Shown here: one piece after another, positions 16,644 through 28,414 of the stretch
How positions within the stretch are numbered: the first letter of the stretch is position 1
Layout of the letters: each line of letters begins with the position of its first letter
Source of the DNA: a virus
IMG/VR virus record: IMGVR_UViG_3300031234_000164
Coordinates: 1 to 28,609 of that record
DNA: 28,609 bases
Reading direction: 5' to 3' (one strand)
Program-made: the position numbers and the translations under genes
The notes under the pieces: generated by a model
The model's input: the letters and a program-made list of their open reading frames with translations, nothing else
Databases searched by the model: none
What the model was told of the DNA's origin: nothing

Positions 16644-16961
16644 TTACGTTGAACTTACGCAATTGTGCGATCTGGCATACGCGATAGGCTCTGCACAATG
16701 AGCACAGTTCAACGGATGATAGTCAGCCGGAAGGACGTTAATTTTGTCTACCGACTCGTCGGACATGAGCCCCTGTCTCCACGCGTATATCGCCACTTCA
16801 CAACGACTCTTCATTTCAAGTTTCACGAACACGGAAGAGATGTGGTTCTTTATGGTTTTCTCGGAAAGAACCAGCTTGCTTGCTATGTCCTTGTTAGCAA
16901 GTCCACTGCCGATGAGACAGATAACTTGAAGCTCTCGCGTCGTTAGGCACGCACTCCTCAA
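16644..16961 (-). CDS. Stand-alone LuxR/NarL-type HTH protein with C-terminal Cys/His cluster
   Basis: TTG at 16961 follows AGGTGAG at the end of the scaffold gene; another TTG at 16979 is possible but has no ribosome-binding site. The 105-residue product opens with a full LuxR/NarL DNA-binding domain (residues ~6-66): LTTRELQVICLIGSGLANKD, IASKLVLSEKTIKNHISSVF and AIYAWRQGLM. The recognition helix is about residues 33-48. No receiver domain precedes it. After a linker the end has Cys86-x2-Cys89 and His99-x-Cys101, possibly a small zinc site not usual for this family. It lies between scaffold and capsid, so it could regulate late genes or the host. The free receiver protein at 2480-2872 is a possible partner. 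Confidence 0.8.
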   Translation of the reverse strand: MRSACLTTRELQVICLIGSGLANKDIASKLVLSEKTIKNHISSVFVKLEMKSRCEVAIYAWRQGLMSDESVDKINVLPADYHPLNCAHCAEPIAYARSHNCVSST

Positions 16962-16962
16962 C

Positions 16963-17874
16963 TCACCTACCGCCGCCAAATCTCATTGACTGCTTGTAGG
17001 CAACCATCGCTTCCCGCCGCGCCTTCGGATCTAACGTACGAAGATCAGGAAGTCCGCCAGTTGCCTTAGAGCCAGAAGCTCCGCCAGCGGTTGACGCTCC
17101 GGTGGACGTAGCATTCTTTTTCGTAGCGTCATCGGTCTGCGTATCGGTAGTCGTCTGGGTTCCCTTGTCGGCAGTTTGAGTGCCCTTATCGGTCGCCTGA
17201 GTACCCTTGTCATCCGCATGAGTCTCAGTCGTTTTAACCTCAGTCTCGGTAGCTTGCACAGGTTGTTTGAAAAACTCCTTGTGCGCTTCTTTCCATTGAG
17301 CGAGGTTCTCTCGAATCCCGATAGCATCTCCCGTTTTTGGGTCGATCTTCGCTTTGTCTCCAACGTCAGATAAGAAGATGTCCACAATTCTCTTGTGGAT
17401 GACACCTTCGGCCTGCAATGCCTCAATGGCTTCAGCACGTATCACACGTCTGTCGGCAACATTGAGTCTGCCTTCCAACGTCTCCGCATCCTTGCGTCGC
17501 TTCTGGTTCTCTTTGTTGAGTTCTCCGATCCGCTCTTTTGCTGCTTCAGCAGCAGTTCGAGAATCTTCTAACTCGCGTCGCAGTTCGTAAATTTCCTCAA
17601 CGCCACTAACACCATTGGAGCTTCCATTGGTGTTAACGACATCGCGAGACTCTCGGCTTTCTCGGCTTTGAGTACGTGTCTGCGTCCGCTTTGGCGACGG
17701 TTTAGCGACCGTCGCAGTAGTCGTGCTTGATTCGCTAGAGGTTTCGCCATCGCTGGCAGAATCGCCATCGGTGCCACTAGCTTGAGTTGCACCATCTCCG
17801 GTGCCTTCCCCGTCAAACAAGTACATATTGAACGACGGAACCCATTGATTCGAGGTTGTGTAATCCGTAGACAA
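16963..17874 (-). CDS. Capsid scaffolding protein
   Basis: TTG at 17874 with GAGGAG 5 nt upstream gives 303 residues. The N-terminus (MSTDYTTSNQWVPSFNMYLF) shares QWVPxFNxYLF with the capsid protein. Then come an acidic Ser/Thr/Gly-rich region (to ~75), a long charged coiled coil at ~95-150 (EEIYELRRELEDSRTAAEAA), a conserved-looking middle (EALQAEGVIHKRIVDIFL) and tandem DKGTQ repeats at ~222-243. The basic C-terminus (DPKARREAMVAYKQSMRFGG) is as expected for a capsid-binding tail. Length, composition and position between portal and capsid fit a scaffold that directs shell assembly and then leaves or is cleaved. The call is from architecture, not from a sequence family. Confidence 0.75.
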   Translation of the reverse strand: MSTDYTTSNQWVPSFNMYLFDGEGTGDGATQASGTDGDSASDGETSSESSTTTATVAKPSPKRTQTRTQSRESRESRDVVNTNGSSNGVSGVEEIYELRRELEDSRTAAEAAKERIGELNKENQKRRKDAETLEGRLNVADRRVIRAEAIEALQAEGVIHKRIVDIFLSDVGDKAKIDPKTGDAIGIRENLAQWKEAHKEFFKQPVQATETEVKTTETHADDKGTQATDKGTQTADKGTQTTTDTQTDDATKKNATSTGASTAGGASGSKATGGLPDLRTLDPKARREAMVAYKQSMRFGGGR

Positions 17875-20489: not shown

Positions 20490-20518
20490 AGTATAGCACA
20501 CCCTGCGTCTACCGTGAA
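20490..20518 (-). promoter_or_regulatory. Predicted sigma-70-type promoter for the HNH insertion
   Basis: Minus strand: TTCACG (20518-20513), 17-nt spacer, TATACT (20495-20490) with an extended TG-C before the -10. It overlaps the 3' end of the large terminase gene. Transcription would start near 20483, leaving about 3 nt before ATG 20480. Confidence 0.4.
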
Positions 20519-21933
20519 GTATTCATACTAAAACGAAATCGCTCCTCAATGGCAGCTTCATAGCTGATTCCGTAACGAAGGCAGTCCCCGAGATGAGTAA
20601 GTTTTTTACTATTCGGAATGACCTCACCCGGCTTTGGCTTTGCAATATCGAAAATTGTTGTTCCGGGCTTCCACATCATTTTTTCAAGGTCAAGCGCAAG
20701 CCATATTGTGTTTTTATTTTTCACAATGACAACCCCGAGGTTCCCTTGCGAGTCCTCTAGTTGACGGTTTGCGTCTGCGGAGCTGTCTATGTGAAGTGGG
20801 TTTCCAGGATTGATTCGAGTCGTACCCTTGAAACCGAGTCGTGCCATCTCTGCTCGCAAAGCGGCCCAGTCTGACACGCCAGTTTGTCTGGATTGTTGAT
20901 TTCCAGCAGCGTCACCGTAGAGTATGATCTCGTTTCGCATTGCTATAGACGTAGCTTCCTTGCGATTCAACAATTCTTTAGGAGCGTCACTAATCAGCGC
21001 CGATTCAATACGAATGCAGTCGTGTATAAACATTACGACTTTTTGATAACCAGGAGCGTTAATACGTCTCCACTGGAAAAGAATAGAACACAAGGGGTCA
21101 AGGTTAAAATCGTGAGACCAACAAAGAGGCAGTTGTGGATCATATCTTAATCGCGGCAGGCCACGCTTCATTGCTTCCTTGTCGTCTATGCAATGCTTCT
21201 CACGATTAAAACGACGGAATACCTGCCCGCGACCTAAGTCGAGAAACTCACCCATTAACTCTGCGCGAGCGATGTCGGGGTCGTACGATTCTTCCATTGT
21301 CTGAATGTACTTGTCAGGCAAAAATGGATTGTCGTATGTCGTTGCGGTAAACAACTTAATTGGTATTTTGCTGCTTATTGGATCAGGTTCGTGAGTTTGT
21401 TCGTATAGCCAGTGTGAATGTGAATGCGGTGGGTTTGCTGTAATAAATATCTGTAATTTCATATCGGGGTAGACTTGACGTTGCAATGCAGTACCGCGTA
21501 GACGACCAATTACTTTGTCGTAAGATTCCTTTCCCCAGAACTGGCTTTCATCCAACCAGCATACCGCTATTTCGAGGGACTTCCAATTTATGTCTTGATC
21601 AACAGACCTGACACGTATCAATGTATTAAGTTTCGGGAACATTATAGTCTTATCGTAACGAACTCGATCAATATATTGGAATTGCGGATATTTCGGCAGC
21701 CAAACGTCATTAAGTCGCTCGAAAAACGTATGCAGCGTGCCGCTTTTTAATTGGTCATAAGTATTTGAAAATATGTAATGAGGTGCTTTTGGATACTTGG
21801 CAAGTGATGTGAGGATCTTGTCCGTAGCAACCATCGTCTTACCAGTTGCCAGGCCTCCTATAAAAGCAATTGGCGAATCTTCACAATGATAAAATTCGTC
21901 CTGTACGGGAAGATGTTCCAAAAGCACGGGCAT
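20509..21933 (-). CDS. terL: Terminase large subunit (packaging ATPase/nuclease)
   Basis: ATG 21933 has AGGA 8 nt upstream; 474 residues is a normal length. The N-terminal ATPase has a Walker A at 26-33 (GGLATGKT, a variant of G-x-x-G-x-G-K-[ST]), Walker B with Asp128-Glu129 (AVCWLDE) and a coupling motif FITANPP at ~163. The C-terminal RNase-H-like nuclease has candidate metal ligands Asp275 (CWSHDFN), Asp341 (ILYGDAAGN) and the Asp of HLGDCLRYG near residue 454. The enzyme cuts concatemeric DNA and pumps it through the portal. Unusually, the small-terminase candidate is about 6 kb away. The HNH insertion follows immediately, a common homing position. Confidence 0.93.
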   Translation of the reverse strand: MPVLLEHLPVQDEFYHCEDSPIAFIGGLATGKTMVATDKILTSLAKYPKAPHYIFSNTYDQLKSGTLHTFFERLNDVWLPKYPQFQYIDRVRYDKTIMFPKLNTLIRVRSVDQDINWKSLEIAVCWLDESQFWGKESYDKVIGRLRGTALQRQVYPDMKLQIFITANPPHSHSHWLYEQTHEPDPISSKIPIKLFTATTYDNPFLPDKYIQTMEESYDPDIARAELMGEFLDLGRGQVFRRFNREKHCIDDKEAMKRGLPRLRYDPQLPLCWSHDFNLDPLCSILFQWRRINAPGYQKVVMFIHDCIRIESALISDAPKELLNRKEATSIAMRNEIILYGDAAGNQQSRQTGVSDWAALRAEMARLGFKGTTRINPGNPLHIDSSADANRQLEDSQGNLGVVIVKNKNTIWLALDLEKMMWKPGTTIFDIAKPKPGEVIPNSKKLTHLGDCLRYGISYEAAIEERFRFSMNTSR

Positions 21934-21944
21934 GAAGTTTTCCT

Positions 21945-22178
21945 TTAAATCCCCTTGTCGATGTCCCTGTCAATAGAGTTCTCAGCAACAAAGAAAGCCA
22001 CAGCTTTGCTGAAGCCTTCAATTGCTTCAATCGTCTCAAAACCAAGTGAGATTTCGCTTATGCTGCCCTTGTTGAAAAGGATGATCGGATGTCCATTGAG
22101 GTTGCAACTAGCCTGCTCGCACTGTACTATCCCTATATCCGCAGAGACGCACTCAATAAATGTACTTACCTCTCCCAT
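21945..22178 (-). CDS. Small protein upstream of the large terminase, 77 aa, unknown
   Basis: ATG 22178 has GGGTGGT directly before it. The product (MGEVSTFIECVSADIGIVQC...) has three Cys in its first 25 residues. The rest is alternating beta or amphipathic sequence (HPIILFNKGSISEISLGFET, then GFSKAVAFFVAEN). It ends 11 nt before the terminase start and is in the same operon. It is not a small terminase by any visible motif. Function is unknown; the gene is plausible from spacing and ribosome-binding site. Confidence 0.55.
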   Translation of the reverse strand: MGEVSTFIECVSADIGIVQCEQASCNLNGHPIILFNKGSISEISLGFETIEAIEGFSKAVAFFVAENSIDRDIDKGI

Positions 22179-22198
22179 ACCACCCTCTGACTCAATTC

Positions 22199-22900
22199 CT
22201 TACAGCGCTCTCACTTCGACCCCTCACAACATCCTAACGGCAGGCCCACAGTATCCGCTCTCGCAGTCCTCGCTGATCCCTCGCCACGTCCACTATCGAC
22301 CACCTCGCAGCACACACGGGTCACTCGCTCGCAGAATATGTCATGCAACCAGCAGCTTCTTGACCGTCTCGCTCGTCCCGCAGCGATTGTCCTTGCAACG
22401 ACTTGATGCCGCCCTCACAGTACAGTTGAGTGGATCACCGTCTCACAGTGCTTCATTGCGCCTCGCAGTGGCCTTTCTTGCCCTCGCAACTCCGTGCCGA
22501 TCGGATCGCAGTACGCTCGGCACGCTCCCGCACGCTATGCCCGCCGCTCGCAGCATTCGGTGATCGTCTCGCAGTTGCACCGGGCTCTCCTCGCAGTCGT
22601 AGATCCCGCCTCACAGTACACATTTCGTCCCGCAATACCATTCGCACCGCGCCCCGCAGCATTGCAATCCAGCCGCGTTCCGACACGCTACTCGTAGCTT
22701 GACCTACGCACAGGGCCTGATCGCGCAGAGACTTCACGACATTCGCCATCCAGCAGCGACATAGTATCCATGGGCCTCGCAGTGACCGCACACGGGCTCT
22801 CGCAATGGCGGATCGTATCCCCGCAGGTCAAAACGCAACCGAGTTCCTTACAGCGGATAGCGAACGAGGGCGTGATCCACGATTGGTACCAGCCTCGCAG
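22199..22900. repeat. Phased array of a degenerate heptamer (CTCGCAG), about 21-bp spacing
   Basis: The plus-strand consensus CYCRCAR (often preceded by GY and followed by T) recurs at 22199, 22223, 22245, 22260, 22304, 22328, 22377, 22392, 22414, 22442, 22462, 22483, 22505, 22527, 22547, 22568, 22590, 22610, 22629, 22653, 22776, 22799, 22820, 22847 and 22894, with weaker copies between. In the tightest part (22442-22653) the steps are 20, 21, 22, 22, 20, 21, 22, 20, 19 and 24 nt, averaging about 21. The 12-15 nt between copies are unrelated. Steps are not multiples of three, so this is not a coding repeat. Spacing of two helical turns would put all copies on one face of the DNA. Confidence 0.75.
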
Positions 22901-22982
22901 ACCTCAAGGACTGCTTACCTCCGGTACCCGGCGCGGATCTCATCGGACTTAAATCGCGACCGACTCTGTCCCATTACTAGGC

Positions 22983-23168
22983 GACCTCTCGCGAGGTCCT
23001 TGTCGGTTCATGGGGTGTAACACCCCTTCCGCACGCCGCGATCTCTCAGGGCCTGCTCGACCTGGGGCACCTTGCGGTGCCTCGCGTGCGGAGTTCAATT
23101 TTCAAAGAGCGCAGGCGTTACGCCTGGAGCCGAGGGGCGGATGAGAGTGTACCCGTCCGCCCCTCGGC
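22983..23168. other. Cluster of GC-rich hairpins, possible structured RNA
   Basis: Perfect inverted repeats follow one another. They are GACCTC-TCGC-GAGGTC (22983-22998), GGGGTG-TAA-CACCCC (23012-23026), and CCGCACGC (23029-23036) with GCGTGCGG (23084-23091) enclosing GGCACC-TTGC-GGTGCC (23066-23081). Then come CAGGCG-TTA-CGCCTG (23112-23126) and a 13-bp stem at 23129-23141/23156-23168 with a 14-nt loop. The strand of any transcript cannot be told from pairing. No known RNA family is recognised. Confidence 0.6.
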
Positions 23169-23261
23169 GTTACTCCGCTTCACTCGTCGGATAACCCATT
23201 CCTCCCACACCTGAGAGATCGGTCGGACATTGAGGAAAACGGCCTATTTCACGTTACGTCC

Positions 23262-23296
23262 TAACCTTTAATAAGGAAACTGCTTATTAAAGGTTA
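23262..23296. repeat. Perfect 14-bp AT-rich inverted repeat at the end of the 115-aa gene
   Basis: TAACCTTTAATAAG and its exact complement CTTATTAAAGGTTA are separated by 7 nt. The right arm includes the stop codon of the gene at 23294-23641. It could act as a bidirectional terminator or mRNA-end stabiliser, although no T tract follows on the minus strand. Confidence 0.65.
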
Positions 23297-23641
23297 TCGA
23301 GGACCGACGACTACTCGCTTTTGCTTTGTAGCATTCACCGCCATTGGTTGTTGGGCTTCCCATAGAGCACGTCGCGCCTGACGCTCTGCTGCCGCCATCA
23401 CCGTAGTGACATGGGCCTCGCAGACGAGCTTCTCGGTAGCGAAGACGCGCTCGCCACTCTCTAGCTCAATCGTCTCCATTTGACGGCCTACCACCCGAAC
23501 CGGAACACCGTCCCATATCCTCGGCCATCGGTCAAGAAAGCGATTACTCGGCGCAACCAAGAAGCGTATGTGATTGCGGCCTTGCAACTTGGCCTCGTTG
23601 ACCATCGGGATTAGGTCGTTCGGACTAGGAGCCTGGCGCAT
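23294..23641 (-). CDS. Phage protein of unknown function, 115 aa
   Basis: ATG 23641 is chosen because GGAGG lies 6 nt upstream; the longer TTG start (23680) has none and would cover the putative operator. The product (MRQAPSPNDLIPMVNEAKLQ) is basic. It has a beta segment (WDGVPVRVVGRQMETIELES), a helix rich in Ala and Arg (MAAAERQARRALWEAQQPM) and a basic tail (KQKRVVVGPR). It has the general look of a small nucleic-acid-binding protein, but no family is recognised. It is the last gene before the 1.1-kb non-coding region and is divergent from the gene at 23765. Confidence 0.55.
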   Translation of the reverse strand: MRQAPSPNDLIPMVNEAKLQGRNHIRFLVAPSNRFLDRWPRIWDGVPVRVVGRQMETIELESGERVFATEKLVCEAHVTTVMAAAERQARRALWEAQQPMAVNATKQKRVVVGPR

Positions 23642-23670
23642 TCGGCCCTCCAGAGCATAGGTCGAAACTC

Positions 23671-23711
23671 TCTCACACAATTCTCACACAAAGAGATCGA
23701 ACTGTGATACT
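23671..23711 (+). promoter_or_regulatory. Divergent promoter region with tandem TCTCACACAA repeats
   Basis: TCTCACACAA occurs at 23671-23680 and again at 23682-23691, an 11-bp step. The second copy overlaps a candidate -35, CTCACA (23683-23688), which is 17 nt from GATACT (23706-23711) with an upstream TG (extended -10). Transcription would run rightward into the gene at 23765. The repeats are a plausible operator. Confidence 0.45.
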
Positions 23712-23764: not shown

Positions 23765-24388
23765 TTGCAACTTCCACGCTCGATTCTTGCGATGAGCGCT
23801 CTCTTCGCATTGACCACATTAGCGGCCAACGCGGCTCCGCTCAACCCGCAACCGCCAGGCCAGCAACACGCGCCTACACAGCAAAACCCGGTCCACTTCA
23901 ACAATCCAAACCTAGGAGGAATGAACCAAGGATCTTCACAGTTCCACCCGGTTTCCTTGCCGGTGATGGCTCCTGGGGCCAATAGACATGAGCAACTTCC
24001 ACCTGACGTATCAGATTTTCGGAAGGAGCCATCGCATCTTCCTAACGCTCCCGTAGGACCGAAGCCACCGGAGCCGATCCATCTTCCGCTCCCGGCACCG
24101 ATCCACACAGCCGACCCGATTCGCAAGCCTGTTGACCCGATCCGAACACCAGAACCGACTCATTCACATGGTCCGGTTCGCGCACCAGAGCCAACGAAGA
24201 CATTCGAGCCAATTCATCATCCAGAGCCGGTTCGCACCCCAGAACCGATCCATTCACATGGTCCAGTCCGCGCACCAGAACCACAAAAGACCCCGGACCA
24301 CGGCGACCAGGGCAAAAACCATGGCGACCAAGGTAAGAATGCCGACAAGAACCAAGACCAGAACCAGGGAGACCACGACAAGAACTAA
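23765..24388 (+). CDS. Secreted proline-rich repeat protein (moron-like, opposite strand)
   Basis: This is the only convincing plus-strand gene. TTG 23765 has GGAG 8 nt upstream and yields a good signal peptide (MQLPRSILAMSALFALTTLAANA-AP); ATG 23792 would leave it too short. The mature protein is Pro/His-rich: about residues 97-175 repeat P-I-H/P-V-R-x-P-E-P units with two copies of HSHGPVRAPEP. The tail is a charged low-complexity region (GDQGKN repeats). No enzyme domain is present. It has its own promoter and a strong terminator and runs against the phage operons, the usual signature of an independently acquired moron gene, possibly altering the host surface. A cell-wall or envelope-associated role is only a guess. 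Confidence 0.72.
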   Translation: MQLPRSILAMSALFALTTLAANAAPLNPQPPGQQHAPTQQNPVHFNNPNLGGMNQGSSQFHPVSLPVMAPGANRHEQLPPDVSDFRKEPSHLPNAPVGPKPPEPIHLPLPAPIHTADPIRKPVDPIRTPEPTHSHGPVRAPEPTKTFEPIHHPEPVRTPEPIHSHGPVRAPEPQKTPDHGDQGKNHGDQGKNADKNQDQNQGDHDKN

Positions 24389-24888: not shown

Positions 24889-25103
24889 AACAACACCTCG
24901 TCTATCTCATTAACGAGATACTTTGCAGGATCAAAAGAGTCTCGATGACGCTCGCATATCTCTTTGATTCGCTCAATTTGATTCATAAGGTTCCCGTAAT
25001 CAACAAGGAAATAGTCAGCTTGAGTTCTCGCTTGTGCTGATTGGATTCGCAGACTCGTCTCTTCAGTTAAATTGCGACCATCTACTCCTATGAGGTCAGT
25101 CAT
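24885..25103 (-). CDS. Small phage protein, 72 aa, unknown function
   Basis: The ATG at 25103 overlaps the preceding stop as TAATG, which suggests coupled translation and argues against the longer TTG start at 25121. The protein is mainly helical (RIQSAQARTQADYFLVDYGN, then NQIERIKEICERHRDS) with an acidic end. It overlaps the protease candidate by 4 nt, so it is in the same operon. No family is recognised. Confidence 0.58.
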   Translation of the reverse strand: MTDLIGVDGRNLTEETSLRIQSAQARTQADYFLVDYGNLMNQIERIKEICERHRDSFDPAKYLVNEIDEVLF

Positions 25104-25321
25104 TAACCGAGAACATACCAATCGTCAGCGTCCTTGTCTTCTTGAGATGGAACCCAACCGCCTTGAACATTCCCTTGAGGAGTTTGAAGGCTTAGATAAC
25201 CAGGAGTACCAGGAAGGGCGGAGTTCTTCGGATCTCGGAAGGCGTATTGGCCTGTACTCCACGAGACACGAGCAACCTTATGCGCTGCTCTGACTTCGAT
25301 GATGGCTGCTTCAAAGTTCAT
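25103..25321 (-). CDS. Tad2-like (DUF2829) protein, candidate anti-Thoeris factor
   Basis: ATG 25321 has AGGAG 6 nt upstream, giving 72 residues. It begins MNFEAAIIEVRAAHKVARVS and ends GGWVPSQEDKDADDWYVLG. This matches the DUF2829/Tad2 pattern: M-N-F-x-x-A-[LI]-x-x-[LV]-x-x-G-x-x-V-x-R-x-x-W at the start and G-W-x-P-S-Q-x-D-x-x-A-x-D-W at the end. Tad2 proteins are tetrameric sponges that bind the signal molecule made by the Thoeris ThsB TIR enzyme and so block that defence. Not every DUF2829 protein need do this. It lies between the SGNH tail gene and a small gene, where its operon neighbours give no further clue. Confidence 0.78.
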   Translation of the reverse strand: MNFEAAIIEVRAAHKVARVSWSTGQYAFRDPKNSALPGTPGYLSLQTPQGNVQGGWVPSQEDKDADDWYVLG

Positions 25322-25330
25322 CTTCAACTC

Positions 25331-27607: not shown

Positions 27608-28300
27608 TTACGCTACATCTTCTTCGATCTTGCGACCGCGTTCGTTTACCTTGATCTCAACCGTCTCTAAGCGACGTTGCTCAATGACGATTGCCTGATC
27701 AATGTCAAAGCCCTTACCAGTGCTGACCTGGCCTGCGCGTAACCCGGCAATCTCGCGGCTTGAAGCAACCGCCCGAGTGACGCCGCTGATCACGGCGTTA
27801 AATACGTCGGCAACGCTCTGCTTCTCTCCAGGGATGAGGCGGTTTGCCAAGAGGTCATCCATCATCTTCCCTGCACACTTGAGCATCTTCTGGGCGATCC
27901 CGCCATGCTCTAGTAGGCAGTCAGCAATCAAGTCAGCCTGTGCCTTGACCGCTTCTGAATGGTTTTCTTGAATCTCTGTAACGGCCTGGCGCGTCGTCAT
28001 GTCGATGACTTCAGCGTAAGCGCGTGCCGTGGCTCGCTCCACTGCCGTCTTTGTCTGGTGACCAGTCAATTCGACGTTTGGGTTAGCAATCCAACCGTAA
28101 TGCTTTATCCAGTAGTGGATAGTCGCGCGACGAATTTCCATCTCGCGGGAAATGGACGCAATGCTCTCGCCATTCTCATACCGACGCTTGGCCTCTTGTC
28201 GCTTCTCCATCCCAGGACCAGTAGAAGCAGCGAAACCGGCAGGGATGGGAGGGCGCTCGGCAGGCTTCCGCTTTTTTCTCTCCTTGTCGCTCGGTTCCAT
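27608..28300 (-). CDS. Terminase small subunit-like HTH protein
   Basis: ATG 28300 has AGGAG about 9 nt upstream; the product has 230 residues. After a basic Pro-rich start, residues ~31-70 form a helix-turn-helix (KRRYENGESIASISREMEIR, then RATIHYWIKHYGW), the usual N-terminal DNA-binding part of phage small terminases. A central helical region (ARAYAEVIDMTTRQAVTEIQ) and a charged C-terminus follow, fitting the oligomerisation and large-subunit contact parts. Small terminase recognises packaging sites on phage DNA. It is separated from the large subunit by about 6 kb and seven genes, which is unusual, so another phage HTH role remains possible. Confidence 0.65.
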   Translation of the reverse strand: MEPSDKERKKRKPAERPPIPAGFAASTGPGMEKRQEAKRRYENGESIASISREMEIRRATIHYWIKHYGWIANPNVELTGHQTKTAVERATARAYAEVIDMTTRQAVTEIQENHSEAVKAQADLIADCLLEHGGIAQKMLKCAGKMMDDLLANRLIPGEKQSVADVFNAVISGVTRAVASSREIAGLRAGQVSTGKGFDIDQAIVIEQRRLETVEIKVNERGRKIEEDVA

Positions 28301-28328
28301 GATAAAAGTCTCCTGAATAAAAAAATCC

Positions 28329-28404
28329 GGGCGGGAGTCGGATTTGAACCGACGACCTTCAGTTTATGAGACTGACGAGCTAAACCAGACCGCTCCATCC
28401 CGCG
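28329..28404 (-). tRNA. tRNA-Met (CAT), initiator-like
   Basis: The minus-strand cloverleaf is complete. The acceptor is CGCGGGA with TCCCGCC (the first pair is C-C). The D arm is GAGC/GCTC, the anticodon loop CTCATAA has anticodon CAT, and the T arm is GTCGG-TTCAAAT-CCGAC. The mismatch at 1-72, A11-T24 and the overall sequence resemble bacterial initiator tRNA. The anticodon stem, however, has AGT/ACT at 29-31/39-41 in place of the initiator GGG/CCC. No CCA is encoded. A T tract follows a few bases later. Confidence 0.88.
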
Positions 28405-28414
28405 CACGAGATCA

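Follow-up and report, generated by a model that had tools for sequence, protein, structure and literature searches.

Introduction

Iteron and centromere (parC-type) arrays are non-coding direct repeats, set about two helical turns apart, that present many copies of one protein site. Phage pac sites lie between terS and terL and contain repeated sites that are read by an oligomeric HTH protein, while the large phage RNAs GOLLD and ROOL come from non-coding regions with several hairpins. CRISPR arrays are built from near-identical repeats of 25–36 nt. BoxA elements have also been found ahead of these long untranslated arrays (PMC7862264). TIGR-Tas systems, which may be phage-borne and combine short conserved with variable parts at a period near 20, have two alternating repeats of 8–12 nt (edge and loop), fixed spacers of 9 nt (up to 12), and a Tas protein with a Nop domain (PMC12045711).

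The array described here resembles each of these systems in part. Its source is an IMG/VR virus record, linear and 28,609 bases long, all of which was analysed and is referred to below as the window. Like iteron and parC-type arrays, it consists of non-coding direct repeats of one site at about two helical turns; unlike them, it conserves only 9 of about 21 bp, has ~32 copies with several bp of jitter, and sits beside terL. No Rep3 initiator (PF01051) was found in this partial record. The position between terS and terL recalls pac sites, yet the array is 5 kb from terS, and its 32 copies are far more than the few sites that known pac sites hold, to our knowledge. A TIGR-like array, mentioned as a distant prospect in an earlier note made from the letters of this DNA, is ruled out by the single kind of motif and by variable spacers, mostly 10–15 nt long; a search for the Tas Nop domain (PF01798), in which the controls were positive, gave no match in the partial 28.6-kb record. 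CRISPR, which the same note had already set aside, is ruled out as well: TRF detected no tandem repeat in 22199–22900, only 9 nt are conserved, and in place of long, near-identical repeats with cas genes there is a degenerate motif of 7–9 nt and no cas genes. The hairpins next to the array are reminiscent of GOLLD and ROOL, although the array itself is poorly folded and Rfam models gave no match to known structured RNA families. We would group it with multi-site binding arrays, as a new form whose mechanism is putative.

Results

Nearly all convincing genes in the window are on the minus strand. Its portal and capsid proteins are distantly related (about 29%) to those of the Komagataeibacter phages phiKX1 and phiKX2. 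Record L066 matches the window at 99.9% identity over 7.5 kb and ends before the array, and the next relatives (L068, L069, L070, L143 and the fragment L145) encode TerL proteins about 45–52% identical to that of the window, with capsids 52–58% identical in L068–L070. No terL relatives were found in genome_contigs. Between terL and the gene for a 128-aa protein, the window has an insertion of ~1.36 kb (21934–23293) that the relatives lack, containing a 14-bp hairpin, a structured leader, the array and a 77-aa ORF (Table 1), for which we found no relatives and no usable model. Relatives encode a homologue of the 128-aa protein (34% over 88 aa; single-comparison E 8e-7), whose gene stops 5 nt short of terL in L143 and extends into terL in L070. 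No gene lies between terL and this upstream homologue in either relative, and the steps of the array are not multiples of three, which rules out a decayed gene or a coding repeat, as the earlier note had argued for the latter. The related phages in which that note suggested looking for the array did not contain it: both the array pattern and the boxA-like string were absent from six related records, some of which are short fragments. In L068, the region ahead of terL has a promoter-like site and then about 500 non-coding bases (1890–2397); this stretch is weakly structured (z -1.7) and has no array and no Rfam match.

Table 1. Features of the insertion and its surroundings in the window.
Feature	Coordinates	Strand	Basis or remark
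terL, terminase large subunit	20509..21933	minus	Pfam Terminase_3, Terminase_6N; PHROG 2
77-aa ORF	21945..22178	minus	start about 20 nt after last unit
Array, ~32 units RYTGYGRGR (CTGCGAG core)	22197..22901	minus	motif counts and EM model
Structured leader	22930..23262	minus	directly upstream of array; fold prediction
Hairpin GACCTC-GCGA-GAGGTC, GNRA loop	22983..22998	minus	fold prediction
Perfect 9-bp helix TCCGCACGC/GCGTGCGGA	23028..23092 (23084–23092 with 23028–23036)	minus	predicted
Perfect 12-bp helix, 5' arm CGATCTCTCAGG	23210..23221; 3' arm 23039–23050	minus	predicted
Hairpin GGCACC-GCAA-GGTGCC, GNRA loop	23066..23081	minus	fold prediction
BoxA-like antitermination element GCTCTTTGAAAATTGAAC	23093..23110	minus	between hairpins
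14-bp A+T-rich hairpin at 128-aa ORF stop codon	23262..23296		terminator-like, without T run
128-aa ORF (115 aa from ATG)	23294..23680	minus	homologue of gene abutting terL in L143/L070
Probable terminase small subunit, N-terminal HTH	27608..28300	minus	Terminase_5 E 4e-7, several TerS PHROGs; candidate binder

The probable TerS shares its C-terminal tail with a protein of L070 that is named terminase small subunit by PHROGs (E 7e-5, in a single comparison), whereas the N-terminal DNA-binding parts of the two do not align. At the end of the contig, a tRNA-Met gene (28328–28405) adjoins that for the probable TerS. Elsewhere in the window, a 74-aa protein (25103–25327) has a Tad2-like domain (Thoeris anti-defence 2-like, E 6e-15), and a response-regulator receiver domain and a LuxR-type (GerE) HTH protein occur within the structural block (2480–2872 and 16644–16979). 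A plus-strand ORF of 207 aa (23765–24388), with a signal-peptide-like start and proline-rich repeats, runs opposite to the other genes and is a possible late insertion.

The array is real and unusual. At least 25 near-copies of CYCRCAR in one orientation had been reported in the earlier note, and our counts bear this out: 20 exact matches fall in 22190–22920, compared with 1.04±1.0 expected (2000 dinucleotide shuffles, maximum 6), and 28 in the whole window. A semi-Markov EM model, seeded with the CYCRCAR motif but leaving every position free to change, placed 32 units from 22205 to 22900. The motif it converged on is a 9-mer with a preference for purines at both ends, R-Y-T-G-Y-G-R-G-R on the minus strand; its strict positions are T (92%), G (95%), G (80%) and G (95%), and variation at the other five consists mostly of transitions. 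With a 6-bit cut, the EM matrix recovered 28 units on the minus strand and 0 on the plus strand. Outside the 9-mer there is almost no information per position, and the spacers are mutually unrelated and do not clearly match other parts of the window more often than expected by chance. A conserved 9-mer amid free spacers looks to be under selection. One 14-mer, CATGGGCCTCGCAG, occurs exactly in both an array unit (22769–22782) and the 128-aa gene (23410–23423).

Steps of 19–24 bp, as previously described, hold in the core (22442–22653), but elsewhere the spacing is looser: 20 of the 31 steps are in this range, the remainder being 15, 16, 26–28 and one of 47, with a median of 22. The densest and most regular stretch is 22442–22659. 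Pairs of CYCRCAR matches 19–24 bp apart number 11, versus 3.05 under random placement (p=2.5e-4). The autocorrelation proposed in the earlier note, for which the lack of a peak near 21 was to count as refutation, gave no peak at 21 at the base level because of the step jitter; at the motif level, and there only, the spacing is visible and the observation stands.

The further proposal that every copy lies on one face of the DNA is partly supported, by the strong units and weakly over all units. Restricting the analysis to the strong units (8 bits, N=21) gives coherence at 10.5 bp (S=7.21, Rayleigh 7e-4, step-permutation p<0.001), which is their top period between 5 and 14; the probability is about 0.001 when the period is pre-specified and 0.048 after the period search. 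Including weaker units gives p values of 0.004–0.06 at 10.5 bp, along with an about equally strong peak at 7.0 bp that has no obvious meaning. The 10.5-bp phasing is suggestive support for an array that acts at the DNA level.

The leader that adjoins the array on the minus strand had been overlooked in the earlier note. Its region (22930–23310) folds more stably than shuffles, with z of -6.1 on the minus strand and -6.5 on the plus strand, and with such similar values folding energy alone does not pick the strand. Of the hairpins, the two whose loops are four bases long read as GNRA (GCAA, GCGA) when taken on the minus strand, and not on the plus strand. The predicted 12-bp and 9-bp helices interleave, and could form a pseudoknot if both are present simultaneously. 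Between the hairpins is the boxA-like element, of the rrn type, of which GCTCTTTNAAA has its single occurrence in the window. Its start, GCTCTTTGAAA, has 1 mismatch from the gamma-proteobacterial boxA consensus GYTCTTTAANA (PMC5725501), which may not be that of the host. An exact search of viral_contigs for the boxA-like string gave one match in a coding gene and one in the leader of a large phage, with no array at either. No sigma-70-type promoter was found near the leader, and hairpins like the A+T-rich one at its upstream end occur in cyanophages. With this structured, boxA-bearing leader next to it on the minus strand, the array probably belongs to a transcript in which it forms part of an untranslated leader (~1 kb) of the 77-aa ORF and terL. 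On the minus strand, the leader has a 13-mer, GACCTCGCGAGAG, and an 11-mer in common with E. coli 16S rRNA, within 22983–23161 and in 16S order, and the array has a 12-mer (22873–22884); the 9- and 10-mers common to leader and 16S have p about 0.01. A 16S rRNA remnant is nevertheless unproven, as the best local alignment scores no higher than the best of 60 shuffles.

Both viral_contigs (IMG/VR) and genome_contigs (GTDB) were searched with three-unit patterns, exact and degenerate, and the matches were scored as chains. The window ranks first among the matches listed, with 225 bits and 31 units. Most other high scorers listed have either step lengths divisible by three, as coding genes do, or tandem repeats with recurring spacers, for example in Pseudonocardia lacus and Streptomyces rimosus. 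In this search, limited to the one motif, no comparable array was found in IMG/VR or among the GTDB matches listed. Tandem arrays of ~20-bp units with a CTGCGAG core occur in both orientations in L173 and L208 (both Pseudonocardia lacus) and L245, with spacers that are repeated in some and vary in others.

Discussion

We tentatively favour the view that the array is a DNA-level multivalent binding platform for one protein, over an array acting as RNA, a minisatellite or a set of pause sites. The insertion would carry ~32 degenerate copies of a 9-bp protein site, RYTGYGRGR, in the same orientation and about two helical turns apart, such that many copies of one protein, encoded by the phage or the host, could align along the DNA or wrap it. 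The upstream boxA and hairpins would stop RNA polymerase from terminating within the array. The single orientation, the spacing of about two turns, the confinement of conservation to the 9-mer, the spacers without common sequence, and a 10.5-bp coherence that is clearest in the strongest units all agree with such a platform, as does the location, between terS and terL, in a gap that relatives lack. Counting against it, strict phasing is interrupted by steps of 15, 16, 26–28 and 47, and over all units the 10.5-bp coherence is weak and equalled by the 7.0-bp peak. The copy number far above that of known pac sites, the lack of a Rep3 match in the record, and the boxA and GNRA features, which suggest RNA, also speak against it, and no relative has the array. 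The binder may be TerS, in which case the array would be a packaging-recognition site; TerS is a candidate because the array is located between terS and terL and because its DNA-binding part differs from that of L070. An altered DNA-binding part together with a new array fits a role in packaging recognition, on circumstantial evidence from a single case in which array and terS are 5 kb apart. Alternatively, a replication or partition protein encoded beyond this partial record may be the binder, and the LuxR-type HTH protein is a further candidate.

An array that works as RNA is the main rival, although we consider it rather unlikely. In this reading the ~32 RYUGYGRGR copies in the minus-strand leader RNA would serve as a sponge or guide array, whose partner would be either one constant RNA of the form 5'-UCUCGCAGU-3', bound by base pairing, or an RNA-binding protein; boxA would guard the long untranslated RNA from early termination, as in CRISPR arrays (PMC7862264). 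Consistent with this, the minus strand has a boxA-like element, GNRA hairpins and a strong fold immediately before the array, and step jitter would be no obstacle. Also in its favour, the array is less folded than shuffles (z +3.9 and +3.5) and forms less structure than arrays whose spacers had been shuffled or rotated (z +2.1 to +2.5), but the low folding is found on both strands rather than on the minus strand alone. The degenerate positions vary mostly by transitions and the strict ones are T or G on the minus strand, a pattern compatible with G-U-tolerant pairing with one partner; this wobble pattern is modest evidence, since transitions are common in protein sites too. No partner RNA was found (CTCGCAG is absent from E. 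coli rrnB, although the host may differ), there is no associated effector protein, and an RNA array does not predict 10.5-bp phasing. A more specific version, which we regard as unlikely, is an undescribed phage RNA element, in which a boxA-protected, pseudoknotted leader would precede an open array of ~32 wobble-tolerant 9-nt sites that titrate or recruit one host or phage RNA or RNA-binding protein.

It is improbable that the array is an old minisatellite, a decayed 21-bp tandem repeat with no present function whose motif is a remnant. The steps do cluster near 21, and in Pseudonocardia and Streptomyces there are tandem repeats of the CTGCGAG type, about 20 bp long, whose spacers are conserved; however, decay would not spare nine positions while erasing the other twelve, and a few positions are still at 92–95%. 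Very improbable, in our judgement, is an array of RNA-polymerase pause sites in the leader, which would delay transcription on its way into terL. In bacteria, the elemental pause consensus has a core that matches TGYG and an upstream part, G-10/G-11. The strict T, G, Y and G of the motif coincide with that core, but G-10/G-11 shows no enrichment at the corresponding upstream offset, and the RG that the motif strongly conserves downstream is outside the pause consensus.

On either the DNA or the RNA reading, the array is a discrete unit that is missing from relatives. If its sites bind TerS, it would be an unusually long packaging-recognition platform, and would make it possible to test directly how a TerS oligomer recognises repeated DNA. 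Were the array to act as RNA, it would represent a new multivalent RNA element, a module inserted into a phage packaging operon.
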